From Aequorivita aquimaris (GTDB lineage: Bacteria; Bacteroidota; Bacteroidia; Flavobacteriales; Flavobacteriaceae), in contig NZ_JRWG01000001.1 in the NCBI RefSeq assembly GCF_001573155.1, forward strand, positions 1 to 64,000: a DNA stretch of 64,000 nucleotides, given 5' to 3'. The notes below the pieces were generated by a model. It worked only from the letters and a program-made list of their open reading frames with translations, searched no databases and was not told the origin of the DNA. Numbering within the stretch: position 1 is the first letter of the stretch; every line of letters starts with the position of its first letter. A program made the translations under genes and the position numbers. Of this stretch, positions 17,376 to 32,503 are shown piece after piece.

Positions 17376-18470
17376 ATGAAAGTAACATTAAGACAACGCA
17401 AAAAGAATGATAAAATAAGTCTGTATTTAGATTACTATCATAAAGGAAAACGCAAAACCGAGTATTTGCGATTATACCTTACACCTAATCCTAAAACTAA
17501 AACTGAAAGAGAGGTAAACAAGAAAACCAAACAATTAGCAGAAACCATTTGCGCACAACGCCAAATAGAAATTCAAAATGGTATTTATGGCTTTCAGGAT
17601 ATTGAGAAATTAAAAGGAAGTTTTATTACTTATGTTACAGCTTTAGCTGAAAAGAAAAATACAAGCTCTGGCAACTATGGGAATTGGAATAGTATGCTAA
17701 AACATTTAAAGACCTTTTGTCCTACAGATGTTAGTTTTCAAGATTTGGATAAATCATTTGTAGAGCGTTTCAAAGAGTATTTAGACAAAGATGCAATGGC
17801 CAGAGCAGGTAAAAAATTGTCTCAAAACTCTAAATATTCATACTATGGTAAATTTTGCGCAGCTTTAAAGCAAGCAGTTAAGGATGGTATTTTAAAAGTC
17901 AATCCTACTAATGGTGTAGACTATTTCAAACAAGGAGAACCTCAACGAGAATTTTTAACGCTTGATGAATTGCAAAAAGCAGTTAATACAGAATGTGAAT
18001 TACCACTATTGAAAAATGCTTTTATATTTTCAGCCCTTACCGGATTGCGTTGGTCAGATATTGAAAAATTACTGTGGTCAGAAATCCAACACTCTAAAGA
18101 AATGGGTTATTATATACGTTTCAGACAAAAGAAAACCAAAGGAGCTGAAACTTTACCAATTTCAGAACAAGCAAGAGAATTATTAGGTGAAGCAGGAAAA
18201 CCCGAAGTAAAAGTTTTTGAAGGCTTACATTATAGTGCCTGGTCAAACCTTAAATTGCAACAATGGATGATGAAAGCAGGTATTACAAAAGAGATTACCT
18301 TTCATTGTGCGCGTCATACCTATGCAACTTTACAGTTAACTTTGGGTACAGATATTTACACAGTATCAAAATTATTAGGGCATAAAGAATTAAGAACAAC
18401 ACAGATTTATGCCAAAGTAATTGATGATAAAAAGAAAGAAGCTGCTAACCGTATTCAATTGGATTTATAA
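17376..18470 (+). CDS. int: Tyrosine-type site-specific integrase
   Basis: A 364-aa recombinase with the arrangement of Bacteroidota element integrases: an arm-binding N-terminal domain (about 1-75), a SAM-like core-binding domain (about 82-180) and a catalytic domain. The catalytic residues are visible: Arg225 (TGLRWSDI), Lys near 253 (RQKKTKG), His310 and Arg313 (FHCARHTYAT), His336 (LLGHKE) and nucleophile Tyr345 (TTQIYAKV). It should cut and rejoin DNA at the 17-bp core in mnmE. The next gene starts within its stop codon (TAATG). Confidence 0.96.
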   Translation: MKVTLRQRKKNDKISLYLDYYHKGKRKTEYLRLYLTPNPKTKTEREVNKKTKQLAETICAQRQIEIQNGIYGFQDIEKLKGSFITYVTALAEKKNTSSGNYGNWNSMLKHLKTFCPTDVSFQDLDKSFVERFKEYLDKDAMARAGKKLSQNSKYSYYGKFCAALKQAVKDGILKVNPTNGVDYFKQGEPQREFLTLDELQKAVNTECELPLLKNAFIFSALTGLRWSDIEKLLWSEIQHSKEMGYYIRFRQKKTKGAETLPISEQARELLGEAGKPEVKVFEGLHYSAWSNLKLQQWMMKAGITKEITFHCARHTYATLQLTLGTDIYTVSKLLGHKELRTTQIYAKVIDDKKKEAANRIQLDL

Positions 18471-19878: not shown

Positions 19879-20171
19879 CTGAAATAATCGATTTACTCTT
19901 GGCGCTCTCACAAGAAATAAAGGACTTAAAAGCACGTATCGAGTTATTAAGACATTCGAGAGCAGAAGTATTAAAAGATACGTGGATAGACAACCAAGAC
20001 GTATTGCAGACCTTACACATCAGTAAGCGAACCTTACAGACCTTTAGAGATAACGGAACACTGCCTTATAGCAAGGTAAAGGGTAAGTTTTATTATAAGG
20101 TGTCCGATGTAGAGCAGTTGCTTCAAGATAACTACTACAACCATAATTTCAAAAGAGATGGAAGTAAGTAG
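19875..20171 (+). CDS. Helix-turn-helix excisionase-like protein 2
   Basis: A 98-aa protein starting with a short coiled-coil segment (IIDLLLALSQEIKDLKARIELL, about 3-25) and then an HTH_17 domain (about 38-88: WIDNQDVLQTLHISKRTLQTFRDNGTLPYSKVKGKFYYKVSDVEQLL). It resembles its upstream neighbour in fold but not in the N-terminal helix, so the two may form a heteromer. Its end overlaps the start of the next gene by 14 bp. A role in excision or regulation is inferred from family and context. Confidence 0.88.
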   Translation: MTEIIDLLLALSQEIKDLKARIELLRHSRAEVLKDTWIDNQDVLQTLHISKRTLQTFRDNGTLPYSKVKGKFYYKVSDVEQLLQDNYYNHNFKRDGSK

Positions 20172-21066
20172 AGAGGCAATTTTAGACAAAACACATTACG
20201 GCTTAAAAATTTATGCCTACGTGTTAAGACAGTATTATCCTGAAACAACAGTCCTTTCTGTAAAAGGAAGGGACTGCGGGATAACCCGAAACCCTTTTAA
20301 TGGTGGTAAAGAAACCTTACGGATTCATATTGATGGTGTAATAGCAACACATCGAGACACAGAGCTAAAGACCTTTAGCGGTGATGTGTTCGATTTTGCG
20401 CAATACCATTTTAGAATAACCGATGAAGAAGAATTGTTGCTCAAGATTAACCAAGAGTTGCATCTCAATTTAGAAGTAAAGGAAAAAGATGAATTAGATT
20501 GGTTGAATGGTCCAGACGATACCTGGTATGCTTACTGTAGCTTTTTCAAATCCCCAGTCCGCAATGTGTTTCCTTCGGAAACCTTGCGATTACATCAAGT
20601 ATTTGCATTAATCACAAGTGATAAATACAAAAAGATTACTGAAGATTTAAGAGCAATAACCGATGTAAAGGAAGCACGTAAATTCAAAGCTAATCGCTTT
20701 GATTACGTCACCTTTTCAGGAACGTTTGAAAAGCGAAACGATAACAATTTGTTAGAGCATTCCAATCTATTAACTATTGATTTCGACCATTTGGATAATC
20801 TTCAAGAGTTAAAAGCACAATTACTGAACGATGAATACTTTGAAACCGAAATGCTATTCACATCACCATCTGGTGATGGACTAAAATGGATTATCAGGAT
20901 AGATGTTTCAGAAGTAAAACATTCGGAGTATTTCACGGCAGTAGCCAATTATATTAAGCATACATATAACATTGAGGTTGACCAGTCAGGTAAAGACGTT
21001 TCCAGAGCGTGTTTTTTACCATACGACCCAACAGCCTTTTTACATAAAAGACACCAAGCATTATGA
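20158..21066 (+). CDS. BT4734/BF3469-type protein (VirE N-terminal / primase-associated)
   Basis: A 302-aa protein whose second half (about 140-300) matches the BT4734/BF3469 (VirE-N) family: NLLTIDFDHLDNLQELKAQL, LFTSPSGDGLKWIIRI and GKDVSRACFLPYDP. The Asp residues in TIDFDH and the Ser/Gly block resemble the active region of archaeo-eukaryotic-type primases, and the family commonly precedes a DUF3987/PriCT helicase-like gene, as here. A role in replication of the excised circle is inferred. It overlaps the next gene by 4 bp (ATGA). Confidence 0.82.
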   Translation: MEVSREAILDKTHYGLKIYAYVLRQYYPETTVLSVKGRDCGITRNPFNGGKETLRIHIDGVIATHRDTELKTFSGDVFDFAQYHFRITDEEELLLKINQELHLNLEVKEKDELDWLNGPDDTWYAYCSFFKSPVRNVFPSETLRLHQVFALITSDKYKKITEDLRAITDVKEARKFKANRFDYVTFSGTFEKRNDNNLLEHSNLLTIDFDHLDNLQELKAQLLNDEYFETEMLFTSPSGDGLKWIIRIDVSEVKHSEYFTAVANYIKHTYNIEVDQSGKDVSRACFLPYDPTAFLHKRHQAL

Positions 21067-22817
21067 CTAAAATATTTAATCCAAAAGAATGGTTGGAAGT
21101 TCCAGAAGAACAACCGCAACCAATAAGCAACAACGCAACAACTAATGTTGTTGCTGTTGCTGATAACGACATTGGAACCTATATTTCTACAATTGAGCAA
21201 TCAGGTATAGACATCACGGGAAATTATACCACTTGGAGAGATTTAGGCTTTGCTTTAGCTGAAGAATATGGAGAAACAGGAAGAGACTATTTCCACCGTA
21301 TAAGCAAAAACTATGTAGGTTATGATTCAAAAGAATGTGATGAGCAATTCAATAATTGTCTAAATGCTAAAGGGCACGGTATTACCATTGCTACTTTTTA
21401 CCATTATGCGCATCAGGCAGGTATAAAACCAATGAAGCAACAACACAACAACGAGGTTGCAACAAATGTTGCAACTGTTGTTGATGTTCCAGAACAAGCA
21501 ATGCCAACAATACCGGATAAGGTATTTAATACCTTACCGCAGTTTTTACAACAAGTTGTAAATCCTGCAAGTAGTAAAGAGGAAAAGGACATTTTGTTGT
21601 TAGGAGCTTTAACCGCCTTTAGTGCCTGTTTTCCTAAACTTTTTGGTGTCTACGACCAACGTAAAGTGTTTGCCAATTTATATCTTTTTGTAACTGCACC
21701 TGCATCTGCAGGTAAAGGCAGACTCAACCAAATTAAAAATTTGGTAGATCCTGTTCATAAATTAAAACGTGAGCAAGCCAAAGTATTAAAGCAGCAATTT
21801 AATACAGAAATGGCAACCTATAATATGAACAAGGGTAAAGATGAAAACTTGGAGAAACCCGGTAAACCGCCTGAAAGAATGTTGTTTATACCTGCCAACA
21901 ATAGTGTTACTGGTGTATATCAATTAATTTCTGATAATGAAGGTAAAGGACTAATCTTTGAAACCGAAGGCGATACATTAGCACAAGCATTTAAAAGCGA
22001 TTACGGTAATTATAGCGATGGTTTTCGGAAAGCGTTTCATCACGAAACCATTAGCTATTATCGCAGAACCGACAGAGAATATGTAGATATTGAAAAACCG
22101 TGTTTATCTACAGTGTTGTCAGGAACACCCAAGCAAGTAGCTACCTTAATCCCGAATGCCGAAAATGGTTTGTTCAGTCGTTTTATGTTCTACTATATGA
22201 ATATAAAACCCACTTGGAAAAACGTATTTTCAAGCAATAACAATGTGGGTTTAGATGATTACTATTCGCAATTAGGAAACGAGTTTTTAGGCTTATATAA
22301 AACATTAAAGAATAATCCAGAAATTGAAGTAAGGCTATCAATACCTCAACAACAGCAATTCAATACATTTTTTGAATCCTTACAAACCAAATACATCAAC
22401 TTACAGCCAGAAGAATACATTGCAACAATAAGACGTTTAGGTTTAATTGCGTTTCGTGTTATTATGCTATTCACAGCATTTCGTATTATGGAGGATGGTG
22501 ATGTGAATCAAGTAAAAGAATGTGAGGATGTCGATTTCCAAAATGCGCTAACTATTATTTCTATTTTAGTAAAGCATAGTAGTAAAGTGTTTAATGATTT
22601 ACCTATTGAGCAAAAAACGGTAAAACGCCTGAATCGTAAAGAACGCTTTTTAGAGAGTTTACCAAAACAGTTTGATAGACAAGATTATTTAGATTTAGCA
22701 ACCAAACAAAACATTCCACATAAAACAGCAGAAGGTTACATTACAAAGTTTGTTGATGCAGGGTTAATACATAGAGAAGCTCATAATAACTATTCAAATC
22801 CTGCAAAATCATTATAA
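21063..22817 (+). CDS. DUF3987 ATPase with PriCT-2 domain
   Basis: A 584-aa protein. Residues about 37-115 form a primase C-terminal (PriCT-2) domain (TTWRDLGFALAEEYGETGRDYF, GHGITIATFYHYAHQ). Residues about 150-540 are the DUF3987 ATPase, with the P-loop APASAGKG at 212-219 and the block GLIFETEGDTLAQAF as a likely Walker B region. Such proteins supply helicase-like activity for plasmids and integrated elements. It follows the VirE-N-type gene with translational coupling, making a primase/helicase pair. Confidence 0.88.
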   Translation: MTKIFNPKEWLEVPEEQPQPISNNATTNVVAVADNDIGTYISTIEQSGIDITGNYTTWRDLGFALAEEYGETGRDYFHRISKNYVGYDSKECDEQFNNCLNAKGHGITIATFYHYAHQAGIKPMKQQHNNEVATNVATVVDVPEQAMPTIPDKVFNTLPQFLQQVVNPASSKEEKDILLLGALTAFSACFPKLFGVYDQRKVFANLYLFVTAPASAGKGRLNQIKNLVDPVHKLKREQAKVLKQQFNTEMATYNMNKGKDENLEKPGKPPERMLFIPANNSVTGVYQLISDNEGKGLIFETEGDTLAQAFKSDYGNYSDGFRKAFHHETISYYRRTDREYVDIEKPCLSTVLSGTPKQVATLIPNAENGLFSRFMFYYMNIKPTWKNVFSSNNNVGLDDYYSQLGNEFLGLYKTLKNNPEIEVRLSIPQQQQFNTFFESLQTKYINLQPEEYIATIRRLGLIAFRVIMLFTAFRIMEDGDVNQVKECEDVDFQNALTIISILVKHSSKVFNDLPIEQKTVKRLNRKERFLESLPKQFDRQDYLDLATKQNIPHKTAEGYITKFVDAGLIHREAHNNYSNPAKSL

Positions 22818-22968: not shown

Positions 22969-23265
22969 ATGGAGTTTGGCGAATACATACGCTCATTGCG
23001 CGAAAAGCGCAATTTGCTATTAAGGGAAATGGCTGCAAATATCAATATGGATGTGGCTTATTTAAGCAAGATTGAACGAGGAAACCGTATGGCAAGACGA
23101 GAGCAGGTAATAGCATTTGCAAAAGAATTAAAAGAAGATGAGAACAAATTAATTAAGCTTTGGATGTCCGAACAGATTGTACAAATGATAAAAAACGAAA
23201 AGGACAGTACGGAAATCCTCAAAATAGCTGAAGAAAAAATTAGTAAGATTGTTAAAAAGCAGTAA
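22969..23265 (+). CDS. XRE-family transcriptional regulator
   Basis: A 98-aa protein with an HTH_3 domain (about 5-62: EYIRSLREKRNLLLREMAANI, DVAYLSKIERGNRMARREQV) and a C-terminal helix (LKIAEEKISKIVKKQ). It resembles controllers of restriction and other defence loci. It is 7 bp upstream of the ApeA-like gene, so it probably controls that transcript and possibly also its own, through the inverted repeat at 22933-22958. Confidence 0.92.
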   Translation: MEFGEYIRSLREKRNLLLREMAANINMDVAYLSKIERGNRMARREQVIAFAKELKEDENKLIKLWMSEQIVQMIKNEKDSTEILKIAEEKISKIVKKQ

Positions 23266-23272
23266 AAATTAA

Positions 23273-24502
23273 ATGTTTAAAGAGAATAAATATTTCGGTG
23301 AGGTTTGGTTTGAGGAATCACAAGATGTGAAGTGCTTCTGCGTACTTGAGCTAAAACATAACAAGATATTTATAACCACAAATTTGAATAAGAAATATGC
23401 AGCATACCAAATTGAAGTGATTTATGGAATGTTCACAGGTTTAGGTTATGTAACCTTTGTTAATTGTAATATACAAAATAGTAGTACAGGTATAATTGAA
23501 ACTAAAGTATATCACCCTAAATATACATTTGTGTGTGCTCATCACTTAATAGAGCCAATAAATTTAAAAGTGAGTGAATTTCAAATTGACAATGCAGCAA
23601 TTGTAAAGTGGGTTAGAAAAATGAACTGGTATAATTCAATCGAAGATAAGGTTGAAAAACAAGAAGACATAAAACACCAAACAGTCATTTCACAAGACTT
23701 AACTTTAACAATAACAAAATCTACTTCATACACTTCCAATCACGACTTTTTAAGAATGGATAACATAGGCTATGTAGACTTCAAGTCTACAAAGAATTTG
23801 AGTATTCTGGAAAGCATTGAACTTTACAATTCATTTCAAAAAATATTTCATTTCATTTACGGTAAATCTGTTCAGTTTAAGTCCTTTAATTTTAAGTGTT
23901 TAAGTTGTGGTGAGTGGGGTTCATTATATTACAAGGATGATTTTAATAAGGAGAACATTTCTGGTTTTATTACACTTGATTATGATACAATTAATGAAGA
24001 CTTATCTAAATTAATCAAACATTGGTTTACGAATCCAGACATTACTTATTGTGCCGATATAATAATTGAAAATTTATTAACTGTAAAGACAAGTCATAGT
24101 AGAAGGTTCACTAATTCATATTCAGCCTTTGAAGCTTACAGTTTTAAATTTGGTAAAACTCATAAAAACCCAACTGTAGAAAAATATTTATTAGAACATA
24201 AAGAGTTAATTCATAGAATTACTTCAATTCCAGAAAGCGAAATCAAAGGTTATGTTTCTAAAATAGTAAGACATAGGGATTATCTAACTCATCGAAATAA
24301 GACAAAGAATAACATTTTTTCTCAATTTGAGTTGCTATACATTTCCTTTTTATTGGATTATATTGTTGGTATAGGTTTAATGAAAAAGATGGAAGCTTCA
24401 GAAGAAGTAATTGAGAAGATAATGTTAAGGGCAAAATCTACTTATCAAGATATGCAGTCGGTTAATAAATTGTTGAATAAAGATATTTTAGAGAACTCAT
24501 AA
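23273..24502 (+). CDS. ApeA-like HEPN defence protein
   Basis: A 409-aa protein. The N-terminal half (about 4-125) fits the ApeA N-terminal domain: GEVWFEESQDVKCFCVLELK, YVTFVNCNI and a strand-rich region ending AAIVKWVRKMNWYN. The middle has one CxxC (FKCLSCGEW, about 206). The C-terminal part (about 265-400) is an ApeA-like HEPN region with the RNase motif RDYLTH at 335-340 (Arg-x4-His). HEPN proteins of this family are anti-phage RNases. The assignment is from motif and layout, not from a search. The gene follows the XRE regulator directly, in one probable transcript. Confidence 0.68.
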   Translation: MFKENKYFGEVWFEESQDVKCFCVLELKHNKIFITTNLNKKYAAYQIEVIYGMFTGLGYVTFVNCNIQNSSTGIIETKVYHPKYTFVCAHHLIEPINLKVSEFQIDNAAIVKWVRKMNWYNSIEDKVEKQEDIKHQTVISQDLTLTITKSTSYTSNHDFLRMDNIGYVDFKSTKNLSILESIELYNSFQKIFHFIYGKSVQFKSFNFKCLSCGEWGSLYYKDDFNKENISGFITLDYDTINEDLSKLIKHWFTNPDITYCADIIIENLLTVKTSHSRRFTNSYSAFEAYSFKFGKTHKNPTVEKYLLEHKELIHRITSIPESEIKGYVSKIVRHRDYLTHRNKTKNNIFSQFELLYISFLLDYIVGIGLMKKMEASEEVIEKIMLRAKSTYQDMQSVNKLLNKDILENS

Positions 24503-24518
24503 ATGAGTATAAAAACAA

Positions 24519-24549
24519 AAAATATGGTAAAAAGTAGTAAAATATGGTA
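24519..24549 (+). repeat. Direct repeat upstream of the hairpin RNA
   Basis: AAAATATGGTA occurs at 24519-24529 and again at 24539-24549, a 20-bp period (about two helical turns). The second copy ends 9 bp before the -7 box at 24559. It is a candidate activator or repressor site. Confidence 0.6.
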
Positions 24550-24558
24550 TAAAGTTTG

Positions 24559-24566
24559 TACTTTTG
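24559..24566 (+). promoter_or_regulatory. -7 box for the hairpin RNA / abi-ago transcript
   Basis: TACTTTTG is a perfect TAnnTTTG. Transcription would start near 24571-24574, just before the hairpin. There is no clear -33 box; the direct repeat at 24519-24549 covers that region. Confidence 0.68.
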
Positions 24567-24571
24567 CAGTA

Positions 24572-24632
24572 ACAGTACACACCACGCTACCCATTAGAAC
24601 AGCGTCCCAGGGTGTGTCTTTTGCTTTATATA
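24572..24632 (+). ncRNA. Candidate structured RNA upstream of the Abi gene
   Basis: A two-part hairpin is encoded here. ACACACC (24577-24583) pairs with GGTGTGT (24611-24617), and directly stacked ACGCT (24584-24588) pairs with AGCGT (24601-24605). The loop is 12 nt (24589-24600) and the 3' side has a 5-nt bulge (24606-24610). The twelve pairs are all Watson-Crick. A T-rich stretch follows. It starts immediately after a consensus promoter and ends 34-49 bp before the Abi start codon. AbiF proteins are known to be linked with a conserved upstream noncoding RNA that acts as an antitoxin, so this is a good candidate; the extent of the transcript is a guess. Confidence 0.6.
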
Positions 24633-24665
24633 CCTTCCTTTTGTTAAACAATAAGACGTTTTTAT

Positions 24666-25583
24666 ATGTTTAGCAAAAAGCCCACTACCATACAAGAGCA
24701 GATTGCCCAATTACAAAAGAGGGGCTTGCAAATTCCCAATGTTCCATTAGCAGAAAAGTACTTGGCTAATATAAGTTACTACCGTCTCGGTGAATATTGG
24801 TATGTGATGCAGGAAGATAAAGAGAAACATACCTTTAAGCCAAACAGTAGATTTTCAGATGTAATTGCCTTATACAATTTTGATGCAGAATTACGATTAT
24901 TGTTGTTTGATGTAATTGAAAAAATTGAAATCAGTTTACGCACCAAACTGATATATAACTTATCTCACGAAATAGACCCTTGGTGGTTCTCTAACTCAAG
25001 TATTTTTATTGATACCCTACAATTCACCAGAACCCTCTCAAAAATTGAAGAAGAAATTACGAGAGCAAGAAGTAAGGATGTAACTATTAAAAGCCATTAT
25101 AACAAACACAAGGATGATTTAAGGTTTCCACCCTCTTGGAAAAGTTTAGAACAAGTAAGTTTTGGTAACTTATCAAAGCTCTATGGTAATCTCATACATA
25201 CAGTTAAAGCAAAAGATGGTATAGCACAAGAATTTGGAGCAGTAAACCATACCTATTTACCAAGTTGGTTACAATCTATTGCTCAAATTCGCAACTTTTG
25301 TGCACATCATTCAAGATTATGGAATAGAAACCTACCCGGAACGGTAAAGTTACTACCTAAACCACCAAATCCTTGGATTATAGATAGCGACAATGTCCCA
25401 AAACAGCACGAGTTCAGTAAACTCTATGTACATATGTGTTTAATGAAATATTTATTAAATACCATTCAGACTAACAACCAATTTACAACACGTTTAAATG
25501 ATTTATTTATAAAGTACCCTAATGTAGACCCTAATGCATTAGGTATGAAGCCTGATTGGGATAAAGAACCATTATGGCAATAG
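24666..25583 (+). CDS. Abi family (Abi_2, AbiD/AbiF-type) HEPN protein
   Basis: A 305-aa protein of the Abi_2 family. The N-terminal part has the family hallmarks: TIQEQIAQLQKRGLQIPN, YLANISYYRLGEYWY (about 28-49) and FDAELRLLLFDVIEKIEISLRTKL (about 76-99). The C-terminal half holds RNFCAHHSRLWNR with the HEPN RNase motif Arg209-x4-His214. AbiD/AbiF proteins abort phage infection, and AbiF is thought to be related to the ancestor of Cas13. The gene is preceded by a strong hairpin RNA candidate and followed 19 bp later by an Argonaute gene. It could be a toxin held by that RNA. Which Abi subtype it is would need a tree. Confidence 0.88.
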   Translation: MFSKKPTTIQEQIAQLQKRGLQIPNVPLAEKYLANISYYRLGEYWYVMQEDKEKHTFKPNSRFSDVIALYNFDAELRLLLFDVIEKIEISLRTKLIYNLSHEIDPWWFSNSSIFIDTLQFTRTLSKIEEEITRARSKDVTIKSHYNKHKDDLRFPPSWKSLEQVSFGNLSKLYGNLIHTVKAKDGIAQEFGAVNHTYLPSWLQSIAQIRNFCAHHSRLWNRNLPGTVKLLPKPPNPWIIDSDNVPKQHEFSKLYVHMCLMKYLLNTIQTNNQFTTRLNDLFIKYPNVDPNALGMKPDWDKEPLWQ

Positions 25584-25602
25584 CTAAAACACCTCATTAT
25601 CT

Positions 25603-27714
25603 ATGCAAGAACACTTAAAAACCAACATACTCAATTTTAAATGGCCAAGTAGTACACCTGTCATATATTTATCGTTAGAAGATATAGAAGGTAGCCACCC
25701 AATCCATAAATCAAAGTTTTCAAAGCAGATAAAAGAGGCGTTTCCAGATACAGATTTATCAAGTTTAGAGCATATTTTCACCACATTTACTCAAGAAATA
25801 CCCAATGCCCCAAGTATCAAAATAAATTTAATAAAGGATAAAGAACTACGCATTTACAAGCAATTCCTTAAACACCAATTAAAAACTTATTTTTTAGAAA
25901 AGGGTTACATCGTGGTCAAAAACTTTGTACGTGATGTACAAGTATGGATGCCTTCAAAAAAAGGGAATACAGCAGACTATAATTTATACTATAAATTCTC
26001 ATTCAAAATACAGTTTGCAACACTCACTGACTTACCAGAACTTGTAGTATCGTATGATGGTACGTCAAAAGTCCTCACAAAATCAGTTAAGGATATTGAG
26101 GAAACAGAGTATATTAAGCGTTGTGTGTATGGTCAAAAAACCTTCAATTACCAAATGAACCTCGACACAGAGGATAAGGAAGAATTTTACAACAGTATAG
26201 AATTTGCTCAAGCCTTTCCAATATTCAATTTACAATTGGCAAGAGCCTTAAACATCCCTATTGAAGAACCAGACAGACCAAAGAACAGATACCAAAAGTA
26301 TGTAGCACTCATCACTACATTTGCTAAAAACTATTTGTTTACAGAAGAATTTAAAACCTTGTTTCCTTTTAAACAAGATGCCTTTATAGATGTTCCTGGC
26401 AATCGCATCAATCACATTAACCCCAACTTGGGTTTATTAGAGTTTGGTAAAGACCAATATGGTAATAAAAGAACCCATTTAGTGCCTAAAAAGGCAATGA
26501 ACATTCTAAACCCTTACAGACGTCCAAGCAATCAAAATATCAAGATATTTTTCATTTGCCATACCTCTCATAAGGATTCGGTATTGTCTTTCTATCAAAA
26601 TTTAAAAGAAGGTGTAAATACTGAAAAGAACTATTATAAAGGATTAGAAGCCTATGTAAATATCAAGGCTACAGCATCAAAAGAGCATTTTATTGAGTTC
26701 ACCAATGAAAATGACCCAATACCTGAAATAGTTGTGCAGCTTGAAAGTTTAACTTTTGACCACGAAAATGTAAAGTATGCAGCCTTTTACATCAGTCCTT
26801 TCGATAAGTTTACACCAGATCCTGACGATAGGGAAATTTACATCCGCATTAAAGAACTGTTTTTAAATGAAGGCATTGTAACCCAAGTGGTAGATTACGA
26901 AAAGATGATTGTAAACATCCAAGACCAATACAATTTTCAGTTTTCGTTGCAAAATATGGCATTGGCAATTCACGCTAAATTAGGTGGTGCACCTTGGAAA
27001 CTGGCAGTAACCGATAAGAAAGAATTGGTAATTGGAGTAGGAGCATTTACCAATCAAGGTGAAAACAGACGGTATATAGCAAGTGCATTTAGTTTTCAAA
27101 ACAATGGTTTGTTTAGAAATTTTGAATATTTCAACCAAAACGAAACAAAACTATTAGCAGGTAGTATATTAAAGGCCATTAGAGATTTTACATCAGTAGC
27201 TCAAGCAGACAAAGTAGTGATTCATTTTTATAAAGAAATGAGTTACGAAGAACTTCAGCCTATTGTAGATGGGATGAACAAACTAAAATTAGGAGTGCCT
27301 TTATATATTTTGAATATAAACAAAACCGAAGCAGAAGATATGATTGCTTACGATGTAAATTGGGGAGATAAATTAATGCCTGTAAGTGGTACATACATTC
27401 GCATAGGTGTAAATAAATTTTTACTATTTAATAATGCACGTTACCCAAATGATATTCATTATGCAGATACAGATGGTTACCCATTTCCTATAAAGATAAA
27501 AATAAGCAGTCCGGATGATGATGCTTTTGAAGATGTTGAGGTGATTGAAGAATTGTTAACCCAAGTATATCAGTTCAGTAGATTATATTGGAAATCTTTA
27601 CGCCAACAAAATGTACCAATTACCATAAAATATCCCGAAATGGTAGCCCAAATAGCACCTCGTTTCGAAAACGGTGTTCCAGAGGACGCTAAAGATACGT
27701 TGTGGTTTTTATAA
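25603..27714 (+). CDS. Prokaryotic Argonaute, PIWI catalytic residues apparently lost
   Basis: A 703-aa protein, the size of a long Argonaute. The N-terminal 300 residues are not typed. Residues about 305-450 look like a MID domain (NIKIFFICHTSHKDSVLSFY; IYIRIKELFLNEGIVTQVV), and 450-703 like PIWI: LQNMALAIHAKLGGAPWKL (KLGGxPW at 459-465), KVVIHFYKEMSYEE (537-550) and NVPITIKYPEMVAQIAPRF at the end. The usual first Asp after KLGGxPW is Gly480 (LVIGVGAF), and the usual HRDG is HFYK (541-544). So guide-directed cleavage is unlikely. Inactive Argonautes bind a guide and signal to a partner effector; the Abi HEPN gene 19 bp upstream is the natural candidate. Confidence 0.88.
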   Translation: MQEHLKTNILNFKWPSSTPVIYLSLEDIEGSHPIHKSKFSKQIKEAFPDTDLSSLEHIFTTFTQEIPNAPSIKINLIKDKELRIYKQFLKHQLKTYFLEKGYIVVKNFVRDVQVWMPSKKGNTADYNLYYKFSFKIQFATLTDLPELVVSYDGTSKVLTKSVKDIEETEYIKRCVYGQKTFNYQMNLDTEDKEEFYNSIEFAQAFPIFNLQLARALNIPIEEPDRPKNRYQKYVALITTFAKNYLFTEEFKTLFPFKQDAFIDVPGNRINHINPNLGLLEFGKDQYGNKRTHLVPKKAMNILNPYRRPSNQNIKIFFICHTSHKDSVLSFYQNLKEGVNTEKNYYKGLEAYVNIKATASKEHFIEFTNENDPIPEIVVQLESLTFDHENVKYAAFYISPFDKFTPDPDDREIYIRIKELFLNEGIVTQVVDYEKMIVNIQDQYNFQFSLQNMALAIHAKLGGAPWKLAVTDKKELVIGVGAFTNQGENRRYIASAFSFQNNGLFRNFEYFNQNETKLLAGSILKAIRDFTSVAQADKVVIHFYKEMSYEELQPIVDGMNKLKLGVPLYILNINKTEAEDMIAYDVNWGDKLMPVSGTYIRIGVNKFLLFNNARYPNDIHYADTDGYPFPIKIKISSPDDDAFEDVEVIEELLTQVYQFSRLYWKSLRQQNVPITIKYPEMVAQIAPRFENGVPEDAKDTLWFL

Positions 27715-27760: not shown

Positions 27761-28072
27761 ATGAAAGTTTTAGCACTCATATTATCTATTTATATCTTTG
27801 CGCTCAATTTAGTGCCTTGTGAAGATAATGGTATACCTGATAATGAGGTTAAAACTGAAATTTCTCAAGCGTTAGACAACGACCATCAACACCAAGGAGC
27901 AGATTTATGCTCACCATTTTGCCAATGCCACTGTTGTCATATTCACGTTACACATTTTAATGTTGTAGATTACAGTTTATCTAATACTGTTATTCCAACT
28001 CAATTATTCTACTATTTTGATGGTCTTGAAAAAGACTTCAATACTACCCTTTTACAACCACCACAGGTTTAA
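27761..28072 (+). CDS. DUF6660 family small exported Cys/His-rich protein
   Basis: A 103-aa protein with a signal peptide (VLALILSIYIFALNLVPC) and a mature part with a metal-binding look: DNDHQHQG and CSPFCQCHCCHIHVTHF (about 48-64), six Cys and several His within 20 residues. I recognise it as the DUF6660 type, which commonly precedes CzcA/CusA-type pumps in Bacteroidota. It may bind metal in the periplasm before export, but this is not proven. It is the first gene of the pump operon. Confidence 0.78.
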   Translation: MKVLALILSIYIFALNLVPCEDNGIPDNEVKTEISQALDNDHQHQGADLCSPFCQCHCCHIHVTHFNVVDYSLSNTVIPTQLFYYFDGLEKDFNTTLLQPPQV

Positions 28073-28168
28073 TGAATACCTGCGTATGCAGGTATCTTAT
28101 AAATTCAAGTAACCCATTTTTGTAATAGGTTGCTTATCTCTATTTATAAATACATTATAACCATTCTT

Positions 28169-31100
28169 ATGATTAATAAAATCATTGATTTTTCAATCAA
28201 TAATAAATTCATTATTGGTTTGCTAACGCTTACCATTATTGGAGCAGGTATCTGGAGTATGACAAAAGTACCCATAGATGCCGTTCCCGATATTACCAAC
28301 AACCAAGTTCAGGTAATAACGCAATCCCCAAATTTAGGTACAGAAGATATTGAGCAAATAGTTACCTATCCTGTTGAGGTGGCAATGAGCAATTTGCCCA
28401 ATGTGGAAGAGATTCGCTCAATTTCACGCTTTGGTCTGTCAGTAGTAACTATTGTATTTGATGATGATATGGGTACATATCTTCCGAGACAATTGGTAGC
28501 AGAAAAACTCAACGAAGTAAAAGAACAAATTCCTGCGGGTTTTGGAGAACCTACAATGGGGCCTATATCCACAGGTCTGGGAGAGATATACCAATACACA
28601 TTAAAAGTAAAACCAGAATATCAAGATAAATATTCCATTTCAGATGTGCGTACAATGCAAGACTGGATTGTACAACGCCAAATGGCAATGGTTCCTGGTG
28701 TTGTCGAGGTCAACGCTATTGGAGGTAAAATAAAACAATATGAAGTTGCTGTAGACCCTAACGAGCTTAAATCTATTGGGATTACCATTACAGATGTATT
28801 TGAAGCCCTCGAAGCCAATAACCAAAATACGGGTGGTGCTTATATCGAAAAAAACCATCAGGCTAATTTTATACGAGGGGAAGGATTGGCAAGAAGTTTA
28901 GACGACATTAAAAAAATTACGGTTAAAACCATTAATAATGTGCCTATAACCATTGGCGATATAGGAACGGTTCAATTTGGTTCAGCCATTCGTTATGGAG
29001 CATTAACTCAAGACGGAGAAGGAGAAGTTGTCGGTGGCTTGGTGATGATGCTTAAAGGTGCAAATTCCAATGATGTGATTGCCAATGTTAAAGAGCGAAT
29101 GGTTCAAATTCAAAAATCGCTGCCAGAAGGTGTTATTATTGAACCACTTTTAGACAGAAGTAAGTTAATTGGTGAAACCACTTCTACAGTTGCTACAAAC
29201 CTTATTGAAGGGGCTTTAATCGTTATTTTCATCCTCATTTTCTTGTTGGGTAATTGGCGAGGTGGCTTAATTGTAGCTTCAACCATTCCATTATCGTTAC
29301 TGTTTGCATTTATTTTAATGAATGTATTCAACGTATGGGCAAATCTGATGAGTTTAGGAGCTATAGACTTCGGAATTATTGTAGATGGTGCAGTAATTAT
29401 TGTGGAGTCTACGGTATTTCTTATCGCTTCCCAAGTACTTAAAAAGAAAAAAATAACAAACAAGGAGCGTGATGAGGTTGCTGCATCGGCTTCCAAAAAA
29501 ATGATGAATGCAGCTTTCTTTGGTCAGTTGATTATACTTATTGTGTTTCTTCCCATTTTAGCCTTACAAGGCATTGAAGGGAAAATGTTCAAACCAATGG
29601 CATTGACTTTTATTTTCGCAATGATTGGAGCTATGGTTTTGTGTCTTACCTACGTACCAATGATGTCTGCTTTGGTATTGAGAACACCAAAAAATGATAA
29701 ATTATCTTATGGTGATAAATTTGTGCATTGGGTTGAAAATAAGTACAAACCTTTATTGGAAAAAGCCCTTCTAAAAGGCAAATTAATTGTAGGAATTGCT
29801 GTGGCACTATTTGCGGTAACAGTCTTTATGTTTACCCGAATGGGAGGTGAGTTTATCCCACAACTCGATGAAGGTGATATAGCATTCCACGCCATTTTAA
29901 AGCCGGGTAGTTCACTGTCTGAAACCGTAGAAACTACTACCAAAATCGAGCAGATTGTTAAGGCGAAATTTCCTGAAGTCGAAAAAATTGTGAGCCGTAT
30001 TGGTGTTGCAGAAATACCAACTGATCCAATGCCTATGGATATTGCCGATGTATTCGTCATACTGAAACCTAAAAATGAATGGACTACGGTAGAGACAAAA
30101 GATGAGCTTATTGAAGCAATGAAAGAAGCTGTTGAAATTATCCCTGGAGTCAATTATGAATTTACCCAACCCATAGAAATGCGTTTTAACGAGTTGCTTG
30201 AAGGAGTGCGCGAAGATATTGCTATTAAATTATATGGCGAAGACATCGAGGTCTTATCTCAAAAGGCAGAAGAAATAACAAAAATAATTGCAGGAACACC
30301 AGGTATTGGTGATATGAAAGCCGAAGCCACAACAGGTCTGCCTCAAATGACTATAAACTATAGTAGAGATAAGTTGGCCCAATATGGACTGCAAATCAAC
30401 ACACTTAACAAAATGGTGCAATCGGCATTTGCAGGAGGAAATGCAGGCGTTATTTTTGAAGGCGAAAAGCGGTTTGATTTGGTAGTTCGTTTAAATCAAC
30501 ACAACCGTAAGGATATATCAGATATTCAAAATCTGTTTATCAATTTGCCTTCAGGGGTACAAATTCCACTTCGTGAAGTAGCTGATATATCCTATAAATC
30601 AGGCCCGATGCAAATCAGTAGGGACAATACCAACCGCAGAACCTATGTAGGGATCAATGTAAGAGGACGTGATGTAAAGTCGTTGGTAGAAGAAATTAAA
30701 ACCAAATTAGATGCACAATTGGAATTACCCTCTGGCTATTTTGTACGCTATGGCGGTGCTTTTGAAAATTTGGAACGAGCCAGTAACCGCTTACAAACCG
30801 TAGTACCTATTGCCTTACTACTTATTTTCGTACTGATATACTTTGCTTTAAAATCAGTACCACAAACCTTAATGATATACATTGCTATTCCAATGGCTAC
30901 CATTGGTGGTGTGGTGGCGTTGTGGCTACGAGATATGCCCTTTAGCATTTCGGCAGGTGTTGGTTTTATTGTATTGTTTGGCGTGGCCGTATTAAACGGC
31001 TTGGTAATGATAAGTGGCTTAAATGAATTGAAAGAAGAAGGTGTTATCAATTTAAAAGAACGGATTTTGGAAGGCACAAAGCGAAGAATACGCCCCATTA

Positions 31101-32503
31101 TGCTCACTGCTTTTACAGATGTATTGGGCTTTTTACCAATGGCTGTTTCAGCATCGGCAGGTGCAGAAGTACAGCGTCCGTTGGCAACGGTAGTTATTGG
31201 CGGATTATTGACTTCTACATTACTCACCTTATTTGTATTGCCTATATTATATCATTGGGTAGAGAATAAGAACTTTAGGTTAAAGCCGAACAAAAAAGTA
31301 GTGAGTGCAGCCGCAGTACTGGTTTTAATGTTTGTGTTTTCAACTCGAAGTAATGCACAACAAATCACGGATACCTTGCCTAAAATTTCGTTGAACGATG
31401 CTGTTGCTTTATCTAAAAAGAACTATCCACTATTGAAGCAAAAACAATTGGAAGTTACCAAACAAGAAAACCTAAAATCCACAGCATATGATTTTGGTTC
31501 TACTCAAATCTTTACAGGAGGTGAAGAAGTGAAAGATGGAACAGGAATCTACACAACGGTCGGTGTTGGACAATCAAATATGGATGTGTTTGGAATCGGA
31601 GCAAAACGAAAACTGCAACAACAACGCATTGAGTTGTCTCAAAAAGCATTGCAATTATCTGAATTGGAGGTAGAACTGGAAGTGAAAAAAGCGTGGGCAA
31701 AATGTTATCAGTCTATGAGAAACTTTCAGTTGTACAAAGAGCTTGATTCCATCTATGGTAATTTTGAACAAGCAGTTACGCTGAACTTTGAAGTGGAAGC
31801 CATTTCTAAATTGGAGTATTCAGCGGCAAAAAATCAAGTGTTTCAAATTCAAAATAAAAAAGTACAGGCATACAGAGATTACCTCATAGCCATACAACAG
31901 TTAAATCTTTGGTTATTTGAAGACGAAATTTATACTGTATCAGAAGAATTGGAAAACATTGCAACGATTGAAACTGATAGCTTATCAACAAATGAACATC
32001 CAATGGTTACTGTTTCAGAAAATCAATTGAATGTCGCCGAAGCAGAATTGAGGGCAGCAAAAGCTGATAATTTACCAAAATTGAACCTTCAGGGTGGTTT
32101 ACAAAAAGTTAATGGTAATTCAGGTTTTTATACCTATCAAGCAGGAATTTCCATTCCATTCCTGTCAGGTTCAAACAAAGCCCGAATTAAATCAGCAAAA
32201 ATTGACAATGCTATTGCAGAAAGTAATTTGTTATTCAAAAAACAAGAATTACAATCACAATATGCACAAGCAAAAGAAAATTATTTAAAATGGAAACTGT
32301 CTTGGGAATTTTACGAAACACAAGTGTTACCGTTAACCAAAGACCAGAAATCAGGAGCGTTGTTGGCGTATAAGGAAGGAGAAATAGATTATACCACCTT
32401 TACACAATTGGTAAAAGAAGCCGTACAGTCAGAACTGGAAGCTCAAAACGCTTTATTCAATTATTTAGAAAGTGCATTTCAATTACAATATTTCAATCAA
32501 TAA
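28169..32503 (+). CDS. czcA: CzcA-type RND heavy-metal pump fused to a TolC-like outer-membrane protein
   Basis: A 1444-aa fusion. Residues 1 to about 1050 form an RND pump with twelve membrane segments. The fourth segment contains LGAIDFGIIVDGAVIIVEST, the motif of divalent-cation (Co/Zn/Cd) pumps, and MGGEFIPQLDEGDIAF follows. Residues about 1060-1444 are a TolC/CusC-like barrel-and-coiled-coil protein, including its own signal-like hydrophobic stretch (VLVLMFVFSTRSNAQ). Thus pump and exit channel are made as one chain with an added membrane crossing. The start ATG 28169 is chosen over the upstream TTG. The adaptor gene begins 4 bp after its stop. It exports Zn, Co or Cd from periplasm or cytoplasm. 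Confidence 0.93.
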   Translation: MINKIIDFSINNKFIIGLLTLTIIGAGIWSMTKVPIDAVPDITNNQVQVITQSPNLGTEDIEQIVTYPVEVAMSNLPNVEEIRSISRFGLSVVTIVFDDDMGTYLPRQLVAEKLNEVKEQIPAGFGEPTMGPISTGLGEIYQYTLKVKPEYQDKYSISDVRTMQDWIVQRQMAMVPGVVEVNAIGGKIKQYEVAVDPNELKSIGITITDVFEALEANNQNTGGAYIEKNHQANFIRGEGLARSLDDIKKITVKTINNVPITIGDIGTVQFGSAIRYGALTQDGEGEVVGGLVMMLKGANSNDVIANVKERMVQIQKSLPEGVIIEPLLDRSKLIGETTSTVATNLIEGALIVIFILIFLLGNWRGGLIVASTIPLSLLFAFILMNVFNVWANLMSLGAIDFGIIVDGAVIIVESTVFLIASQVLKKKKITNKERDEVAASASKKMMNAAFFGQLIILIVFLPILALQGIEGKMFKPMALTFIFAMIGAMVLCLTYVPMMSALVLRTPKNDKLSYGDKFVHWVENKYKPLLEKALLKGKLIVGIAVALFAVTVFMFTRMGGEFIPQLDEGDIAFHAILKPGSSLSETVETTTKIEQIVKAKFPEVEKIVSRIGVAEIPTDPMPMDIADVFVILKPKNEWTTVETKDELIEAMKEAVEIIPGVNYEFTQPIEMRFNELLEGVREDIAIKLYGEDIEVLSQKAEEITKIIAGTPGIGDMKAEATTGLPQMTINYSRDKLAQYGLQINTLNKMVQSAFAGGNAGVIFEGEKRFDLVVRLNQHNRKDISDIQNLFINLPSGVQIPLREVADISYKSGPMQISRDNTNRRTYVGINVRGRDVKSLVEEIKTKLDAQLELPSGYFVRYGGAFENLERASNRLQTVVPIALLLIFVLIYFALKSVPQTLMIYIAIPMATIGGVVALWLRDMPFSISAGVGFIVLFGVAVLNGLVMISGLNELKEEGVINLKERILEGTKRRIRPIMLTAFTDVLGFLPMAVSASAGAEVQRPLATVVIGGLLTSTLLTLFVLPILYHWVENKNFRLKPNKKVVSAAAVLVLMFVFSTRSNAQQITDTLPKISLNDAVALSKKNYPLLKQKQLEVTKQENLKSTAYDFGSTQIFTGGEEVKDGTGIYTTVGVGQSNMDVFGIGAKRKLQQQRIELSQKALQLSELEVELEVKKAWAKCYQSMRNFQLYKELDSIYGNFEQAVTLNFEVEAISKLEYSAAKNQVFQIQNKKVQAYRDYLIAIQQLNLWLFEDEIYTVSEELENIATIETDSLSTNEHPMVTVSENQLNVAEAELRAAKADNLPKLNLQGGLQKVNGNSGFYTYQAGISIPFLSGSNKARIKSAKIDNAIAESNLLFKKQELQSQYAQAKENYLKWKLSWEFYETQVLPLTKDQKSGALLAYKEGEIDYTTFTQLVKEAVQSELEAQNALFNYLESAFQLQYFNQ

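Follow-up and report, generated by a model that had tools for sequence, protein, structure and literature searches.

Systems of the AbiF type, which are type III-like, join an Abi_2 HEPN protein to a structured RNA that lies directly upstream of its gene, together with a promoter-like box. In C. difficile, AbiF is described as neutralised by such an RNA (AbiFCd-RCd22, PMC12373285), and the function of another pair, PbAbiF-AbiFr, is treated in a review that presents the structure 8vz6 as the PbAbiF-RNA complex (PMC12737573). Toxins are also described inside restriction-modification (R-M) operons, such as members of the Abi2/AbiF/AbiD family (PMC3710099) and DarTG2, embedded in a type I system in the RptR island (PMC12255303). 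For the prokaryotic Argonautes (pAgos) of the long-B group, the survey of Ryazansky et al. states that all of them are without the catalytic tetrad and that 14% of their operons hold RND transporters (PMC6299218). Long-B pAgos are described as triggers of toxic effectors, and in the published systems ago lies upstream of the effector gene and the Argonaute and effector trees match; Song et al. also set apart a subclade of the long-B group in which a VirE-N protein, og_54, is usually encoded two to eight genes upstream, and whose function they leave open (PMC10620215). Here, we compare with these systems a stretch of 64,000 nucleotides (nt) from Aequorivita aquimaris (contig NZ_JRWG01000001.1, positions 1 to 64,000; hereafter the window), in which a hairpin RNA, an abi gene and an ago gene follow one another. 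A first-pass annotation, made from the letters alone, had joined the three in one system. The analysis presented here indicates that the AbiF module and the Argonaute probably just lie side by side in a defence slot with exchangeable contents, carried by an integrative element, and are not the parts of a three-part machine. No Argonaute-Abi or Argonaute-HEPN pair was found in the titles and abstracts among the literature matches listed, although one may have been published all the same.

The hairpin upstream of abi is a genuine structured RNA. Its 12 pairs, already seen in the first-pass annotation, are arranged as 7+5 around a 12-nt loop and a 5-nt bulge on the 3' side. Folding of the window sequence alone is mildly unusual (z -2.04, with 5 of 200 shuffles equally stable), and it was covariation that decided against a chance fold. 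The regions upstream of abi were taken from 30 loci of a family sample, the window's own included, and hairpins were assigned in 28 of them, 24 by a hairpin finder and four by eye (L078, L081, L082 and L084; the finder had chosen wrong sites in the last three and only a second hairpin in L078). None was assigned upstream of Abi in the remaining two of the 30 loci, L088, which holds a broken Abi copy, and L091, whose Abi is without the Rx4H motif. Across the 11 pairs of an alignment of 13 sequences, 12 of them distinct, all cells are paired, and four pairs and 12 cells are changed on both sides; this number of cells was reached in 0 of 500 shuffles and this number of pairs in 12 of 500. The other seven pairs are invariant and so uninformative on covariation. 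Structures slid along the same alignment pair just 22-55% of the cells.

A covariance model of the hairpin, R1, was scanned over 81 sources with 1.19 Mb in total, namely the window, 50 Argonaute loci and 30 other loci. All 19 matches at E values up to 5 lie upstream of an Abi gene, loci without an Argonaute included, and there was no match in the Argonaute loci without Abi. Fifteen of these matches belong to the training set, which holds the window itself (as L062), or are identical to a member of it, the new ones being L126, L128, L132 and L151. Among 11 further loci, R1 found the RNA in four (L071 and three with hairpins assigned by eye, L078, L081 and L084) and missed it in seven (L082, L085, L087, L088, L089, L090 and L091). 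The expectation that the hairpin is kept and covaries where Abi is kept was thus borne out by the double-changed cells and by the placement of the R1 matches. The -7 box was found again as well: a box of the form TAnnTTTG, in the window TACTTTTG, ends 9-11 nt 5' of the stem in 25 of the 28 Abi-upstream motifs (window included); when the 24-nt stretches concerned are shuffled, the rate is 1.5%. A -33/-7 promoter pattern gave nine matches where 7.56 were expected, none of them at the RNA.

The Rfam abiF family, RF03085, has no match in the window at gathering or permissive score, the sole permissive match there being a microRNA family at 21.4 bits with a cut-off of 80, and membership of an Rfam family was rejected, as none was reached at gathering score. 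In the 16 relatives scanned, RF03085 passes in L087 (42.5 bits, cut-off 37) and stays below the cut-off in L090 (28.8 bits) and L089 (28.5 bits), directly upstream of Abi in all three. Because the family misses the window but matches, fully or weakly, directly upstream of Abi in relatives, the window RNA is best read as a divergent abiF-like RNA; it shares with RF03085 an outer stem, an inner stem, a large loop and the 3' bulge, and differs from it in slightly longer stems and loop. In L078 (2437-2553, minus strand), an R1-type hairpin is followed by an abiF-like one, seen by eye where Rfam is silent, before a single Abi, an arrangement that resembles the pair of abiF motifs in RCd22.

The protein encoded next to this RNA matches Pfam Abi_2 (182.6 bits) and PADLOC AbiD, and its residues 2-305 align with chain 8vz6_A (E 5.1e-57), as a full-length relative of PbAbiF. 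Its Rx4H motif, which the first-pass annotation had also noticed, reads RNFCAH; the motif is present in 34 of 35 Abi sequences, several of which are the same genome twice, and the exception (L091) is also without an assigned hairpin. Since the hairpin is kept with Abi and covaries, as expected of an AbiF RNA antitoxin, the RNA and Abi are best read as an AbiF-type toxin-antitoxin module of known kind. By analogy with characterised AbiF systems, the module's own promoter would make the short hairpin RNA, which would bind the predicted HEPN ribonuclease and hold it inactive; infection may then lower the RNA or disturb the complex, and the freed ribonuclease would cleave RNA and stop growth.

The Argonaute, of 703 residues, begins 19 bp after abi (gap 25584-25602), as the first-pass annotation had it, and the gap is 17 bp in the other five loci where abi precedes ago; this spacing makes the single transcription unit of the first-pass annotation plausible. 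A PADLOC pAgo model matches along the whole protein (936.7 bits), and Pfam Piwi matches as well (45.5 bits); of the order N, PAZ-like, MID and PIWI looked for in a long-B pAgo, the MID-PIWI part is covered by a domain match. In an alignment of 23 sequences (the window's and those of 22 relatives, which are 34-98% identical and include one partial sequence), the sites where the PIWI catalytic aspartates are expected read IGVGAF for the first and IHFYK for the second, and G478, G480, H541, Y543 and K544 are invariant in all 23. The GVG and HFYK sites align with AF1318 and with 5awh/6d8a, presumably RsAgo; these two and EcAgo are the best solved sequence matches. Y413, K417, Q428 and K459, which we take to be the Y-K-Q-K motif of the 5' guide pocket, are likewise invariant in 23 of 23 and are aligned to AF1318, and the YK of this pocket in long-B pAgos is also given in a survey (PMC6299218). 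The earlier claim of replaced PIWI aspartates is thus probably right, with the replacements at the expected sites, and the claim of a nuclease-dead protein is likely rather than proved, the residues having been read within the aligned family and against AF1318 and 5awh/6d8a. The Argonaute fits the long-B group near VirE-N genes. An AlphaFold model built from an alignment of 28 close relatives was unusable (predicted local distance difference test score 41.5).

The joint Abi-Argonaute system proposed earlier did not hold up as well as its parts. Fifty loci with close Argonaute relatives were found with an Argonaute bait and exact 8-residue patterns; with the window added and three loci removed that are truncated at the start of ago (L049, L054 and L056), 48 remain, four with the 3' end of ago cut being included, and some of them are the same organisms as loci of the family sample. 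Directly upstream of ago stands ApeA in 10 of the 48, sm13 in 8, HEPN11 in 7, TM23 in 6, Abi in 6 (the window, L020, L024, L036, L059 and L061), a type IIG R-M gene in 5, and TM20, Bflower or none in 2 each, where HEPN11, TM23, TM20 and sm13 are cluster names of the present analysis; besides ApeA and type IIG R-M, the neighbours include further HEPN proteins and membrane proteins. Among the 397 genomes of the family samples, Abi is found in 38 and an Argonaute match in 39; the Abi matches number 41, of which two come from a single broken copy. Just four of these 41 have ago next to them (G000, G109, G156 and G422), or four of the 14 at 72% identity or more; in G202, both genes are present with an hsdR-like gene between them. 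On an Argonaute tree of 43 rows, made by a quick method and with stars on 10 of its 36 inner branches, there are 25 changes of neighbour, while shuffled labels give 29.2 (24-33) and 6 of 300 shuffles are at or below 25. Abi changes six times for its six tips, as compared with 5.8 (3-6) for shuffled labels, 238 of 300 reaching six. The neighbour thus keeps a weak trace of descent and Abi none, with little power at six tips. Moreover, the Argonautes of L046 and L047 are identical and their cassettes differ, and there is no Abi beside the Argonaute nearest to the window's (L012, 99%). The pair does occur in other genomes, and conservation, whose absence the first-pass annotation had named beforehand as a refutation, is largely missing, the six cases being unclustered on the tree at the low power given. 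A dedicated, co-evolving Abi-Argonaute pair was rejected on these counts.

The mechanism offered with that pair, in which the non-cutting Argonaute would recognise the invader through a guide and so free the AbiF ribonuclease from the RNA antitoxin, could draw on the spacing of 17 or 19 bp, and on the toxic effectors triggered by long-B pAgos (PMC10620215). Like the BPAN, BPAS and BPAM systems, the locus holds a probably inactive long Argonaute with a predicted toxic neighbour. Unlike in those systems, there is no sign of joint inheritance, and Abi is encoded upstream and not downstream; the published long-B systems have ago first and matching trees (PMC10620215). With 42 of the 48 Argonautes preceded by something other than Abi, Abi keeping its RNA where no Argonaute is present, and no common history on the Argonaute tree, we give this mechanism very little credence.

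The surroundings of Abi elsewhere point in the same direction. In L121-L131, Abi keeps the RNA without an adjacent Argonaute. Six of these 11 close loci (L123, L125, L126, L128, L129 and L130) have Abi between hsdS and hsdR, with other genes also in between in L125 and L128; the other five do not (L121, L122, L124, L127 and L131), and L121 has the same slot order of helix-turn-helix (HTH) gene, type IIG gene and Abi, but no Argonaute. The order hsdS-abi-hsdR recurs in L084 and L087. Such loci, in which Abi and its RNA stand between hsdS and hsdR and a small regulator gene comes first, resemble the toxins described in type I R-M operons; the window slot differs in having an Argonaute and no type I R-M, and Abi there does not lie between R-M genes. 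These arrangements, and the published reports of Abi2/AbiF/AbiD in R-M operons (PMC3710099) and of DarTG2 in a type I system (PMC12255303), suggest that AbiF might be an embedded back-up toxin guarding immune operons, type I R-M or Argonaute, and firing when a phage shuts off or attacks the operon. Embedding amounts at most to shared transcription, not guarding, and with no type I system in the window slot we consider this role quite improbable.

Another HEPN protein keeps closer company with the Argonaute clade. Seventeen of the 397 genomes carry HEPN11 (about 235-244 residues, Rx4H), at 19 places in all, and at 13 of these places it lies directly beside the Argonaute, eight starting 6-10 bp after the ago stop codon and five upstream; two of the 13 are in G163, where ago is split over two contigs. 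Of the other six, four are weak matches, one is in G212 and one is a second copy in G179. Examples flank the Argonaute on either side (L013, 5247-5954; L034, 8125-8859; L038, 8122-8856; L160), and L160 keeps the pair with an Argonaute 56% and a HEPN11 59% identical. This cluster is labelled HEPN on the basis of Rx4H and of a single, weak match in PADLOC (E 6e-4); it has no Pfam match, and none of its members was found in the window's genome. Because HEPN11 is adjacent to ago at 13 of 19 places, versus four of 41 for Abi, it is possibly a better partner lead for the clade than Abi. ApeA, surveyed in 344 genomes, gave seven matches, three in the Argonaute slot.

Such neighbours raise the question of swappable effectors, with the Argonaute as a general sensor that activates whichever killer is adjacent (HEPN11, ApeA, AbiF, TM23 or sm13). 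A HEPN-type gene stands directly beside ago, on at least one side, in 28 of 48 loci, and the HEPN11 pair is kept in the divergent L160. On the other hand, no cassette lies upstream in L031 and L034, the neighbour elsewhere is a type IIG R-M enzyme or a family-less protein of 107 residues, and AbiF is under the control of its own RNA and occurs in R-M operons without an Argonaute; we regard general activation as unlikely. A more specific form, in which the clade would supply a constant guided sensor and a socket for exchangeable effectors, mostly HEPN ribonucleases (HEPN11, ApeA, AbiF), with HEPN11 as the regular partner where present and an RNA-silenced AbiF in the window's socket, is a long shot. 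If true, guided recognition would feed into an RNA-antitoxin switch in the window.

The reading that we favour, two modules sharing an exchangeable slot, is preferred because Abi and the Argonaute are usually apart, Abi scatters on the tree as shuffled labels do, and Abi is also found in R-M loci. Several points weigh against it. The constancy of the Argonaute arises partly by selection, through the bait and the exact patterns used; the neighbour has its weak trace of inheritance (no more changes in 6 of 300 shuffles); six Abi tips give the scatter test little power; recombination inside ago could distort the tree; and defence neighbours could still act together. In addition, L132 and L151, with divergent Argonautes (36% and 39% identical) directly after the hsdR-like genes of Abi-holding operons, have Abi, the hsdR-like gene and the Argonaute in one run, which is recurrent company; an ApeA gene follows ago in L151.

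The features of the locus are listed in Table 1. The region is best explained as an HTH-headed exchangeable defence slot within an integrative element. The HTH regulator is present in 27 of 397 genomes, 25 of which also have the Argonaute, and, of the 39 genomes in which an Argonaute was matched, 14 are without it at the cut-off used. Seventeen different cassette combinations lie between HTH and ago in 39 loci with the HTH gene called, ApeA being the sole cassette in 10 relatives. In the window, the HTH regulator and an ApeA-type HEPN gene (22969-24502) precede the AbiF module, so that two HEPN genes share one slot. The 17-nt repeat, AAAATATGGTA(A/T)AAAGT, stands just before the RNA promoter and is kept, with single changes, in all six Abi-Ago loci; a similar pair lies upstream of the distant Abi in L084, and it is a candidate operator.

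Table 1. Features of the slot and its carrier element (positions in the window)
Feature	Position	Strand	Basis
Tyrosine recombinase (integrase) of carrier element	17376-18470	+	Phage_integrase, Phage_int_SAM_5, Arm-DNA-bind_5
BT4734-like_N gene of carrier element	20158-21066	+	Pfam; same order upstream of ago in many relatives
PriCT_2/DUF3987 gene of carrier element	21063-22817	+	Pfam; same order upstream of ago in many relatives
Small regulator with HTH (XRE or control-protein type), at the slot's 5' border	22969-23265	+	HTH_31, HTH_3; PADLOC control protein
ApeA-type HEPN protein, slot cassette, RDYLTH motif	23273-24502	+	ApeA_NTD1, HEPN_Apea
Direct repeat AAAATATGGTAAAAAGT / AAAATATGGTATAAAGT, candidate operator, upstream of RNA promoter	24519-24555	.	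17 nt, 94% identity, spacing 20
-7 type box TACTTTTG of RNA	24559-24566	+	TAnnTTTG at fixed distance, 25/28 upstream regions
abiF-like antitoxin RNA (putative), hairpin 24577-24617	24573-24622	+	Covariance model R1, 77.6 bits; pair counts
Abi_2/AbiF HEPN ribonuclease-like toxin (predicted)	24666-25583	+	Pfam Abi_2, PADLOC AbiD, chain 8vz6_A
Long-B-like prokaryotic Argonaute, PIWI catalytic residues apparently replaced, guide-pocket residues intact	25603-27714	+	Pfam Piwi, PADLOC pAgo, alignments
DUF6660 gene, 3' border of slot	27761-28072	+	Pfam; homologues after ago in many relatives
RND metal-efflux-like gene, 3' border of slot	28130-32503	+	Named by reading the sequence; homologues after ago in many relatives

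Pfam PF08800 (BT4734-like_N) was formerly named VirE_N, and the BT4734-like_N gene is possibly the og_54 VirE-N neighbour of the long-B surveys, the orthogroups being likened by description. The window shares with that subgroup the apparently replaced PIWI residues, the BT4734-like_N gene upstream and RND efflux genes nearby; it differs in that the latter genes seem to belong to the carrier element and the border of the slot, and in that the genes next to ago in the operon can be exchanged. The tRNA search found no tRNA, the search of viral contigs gave five pattern matches, none of them a relative, and the plasmid search gave 11 records that are 22-26% identical and cover no more than 65% of the query.

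Other relatives add to the contents of the slot. In L014 (3344-5961), two TIR genes of one cluster, one of them with a match to ThsB models, precede ago together with a PDC-M50A gene and a predicted membrane protein, and in L022 (3200-5242) a deaminase-type defence gene (PADLOC dCTPase) accompanies HEPN11. The 107-residue sm13 (L023, 5646-5969), second commonest among the upstream neighbours, has no Pfam or PADLOC match. Divergent Argonautes stand directly after the HTH gene in L133-L137 and L147, and after R-M-like genes in L138.

Taken as neighbours, the HTH regulator would open the slot and the long-B-like, probably non-cutting Argonaute would close it, with unrelated defence cassettes exchanged between them. 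The Argonaute, its guide pocket kept, would be expected to bind guided invader nucleic acid and then to block the target or switch on a partner; AbiF and the Argonaute, probably sharing transcription and mobility, would provide layered defence. A striking gene pair is in this way resolved into two testable modules. The new covariance model serves the abiF-like RNA of Flavobacteriaceae that Rfam misses in the window, and it places relatives of this RNA with Abi in both R-M and Argonaute operons. The VirE-N and RND neighbours of some long-B Argonautes may be carrier element and defence-slot border, and a different HEPN protein, HEPN11, is indicated as the likelier partner of this Argonaute clade.

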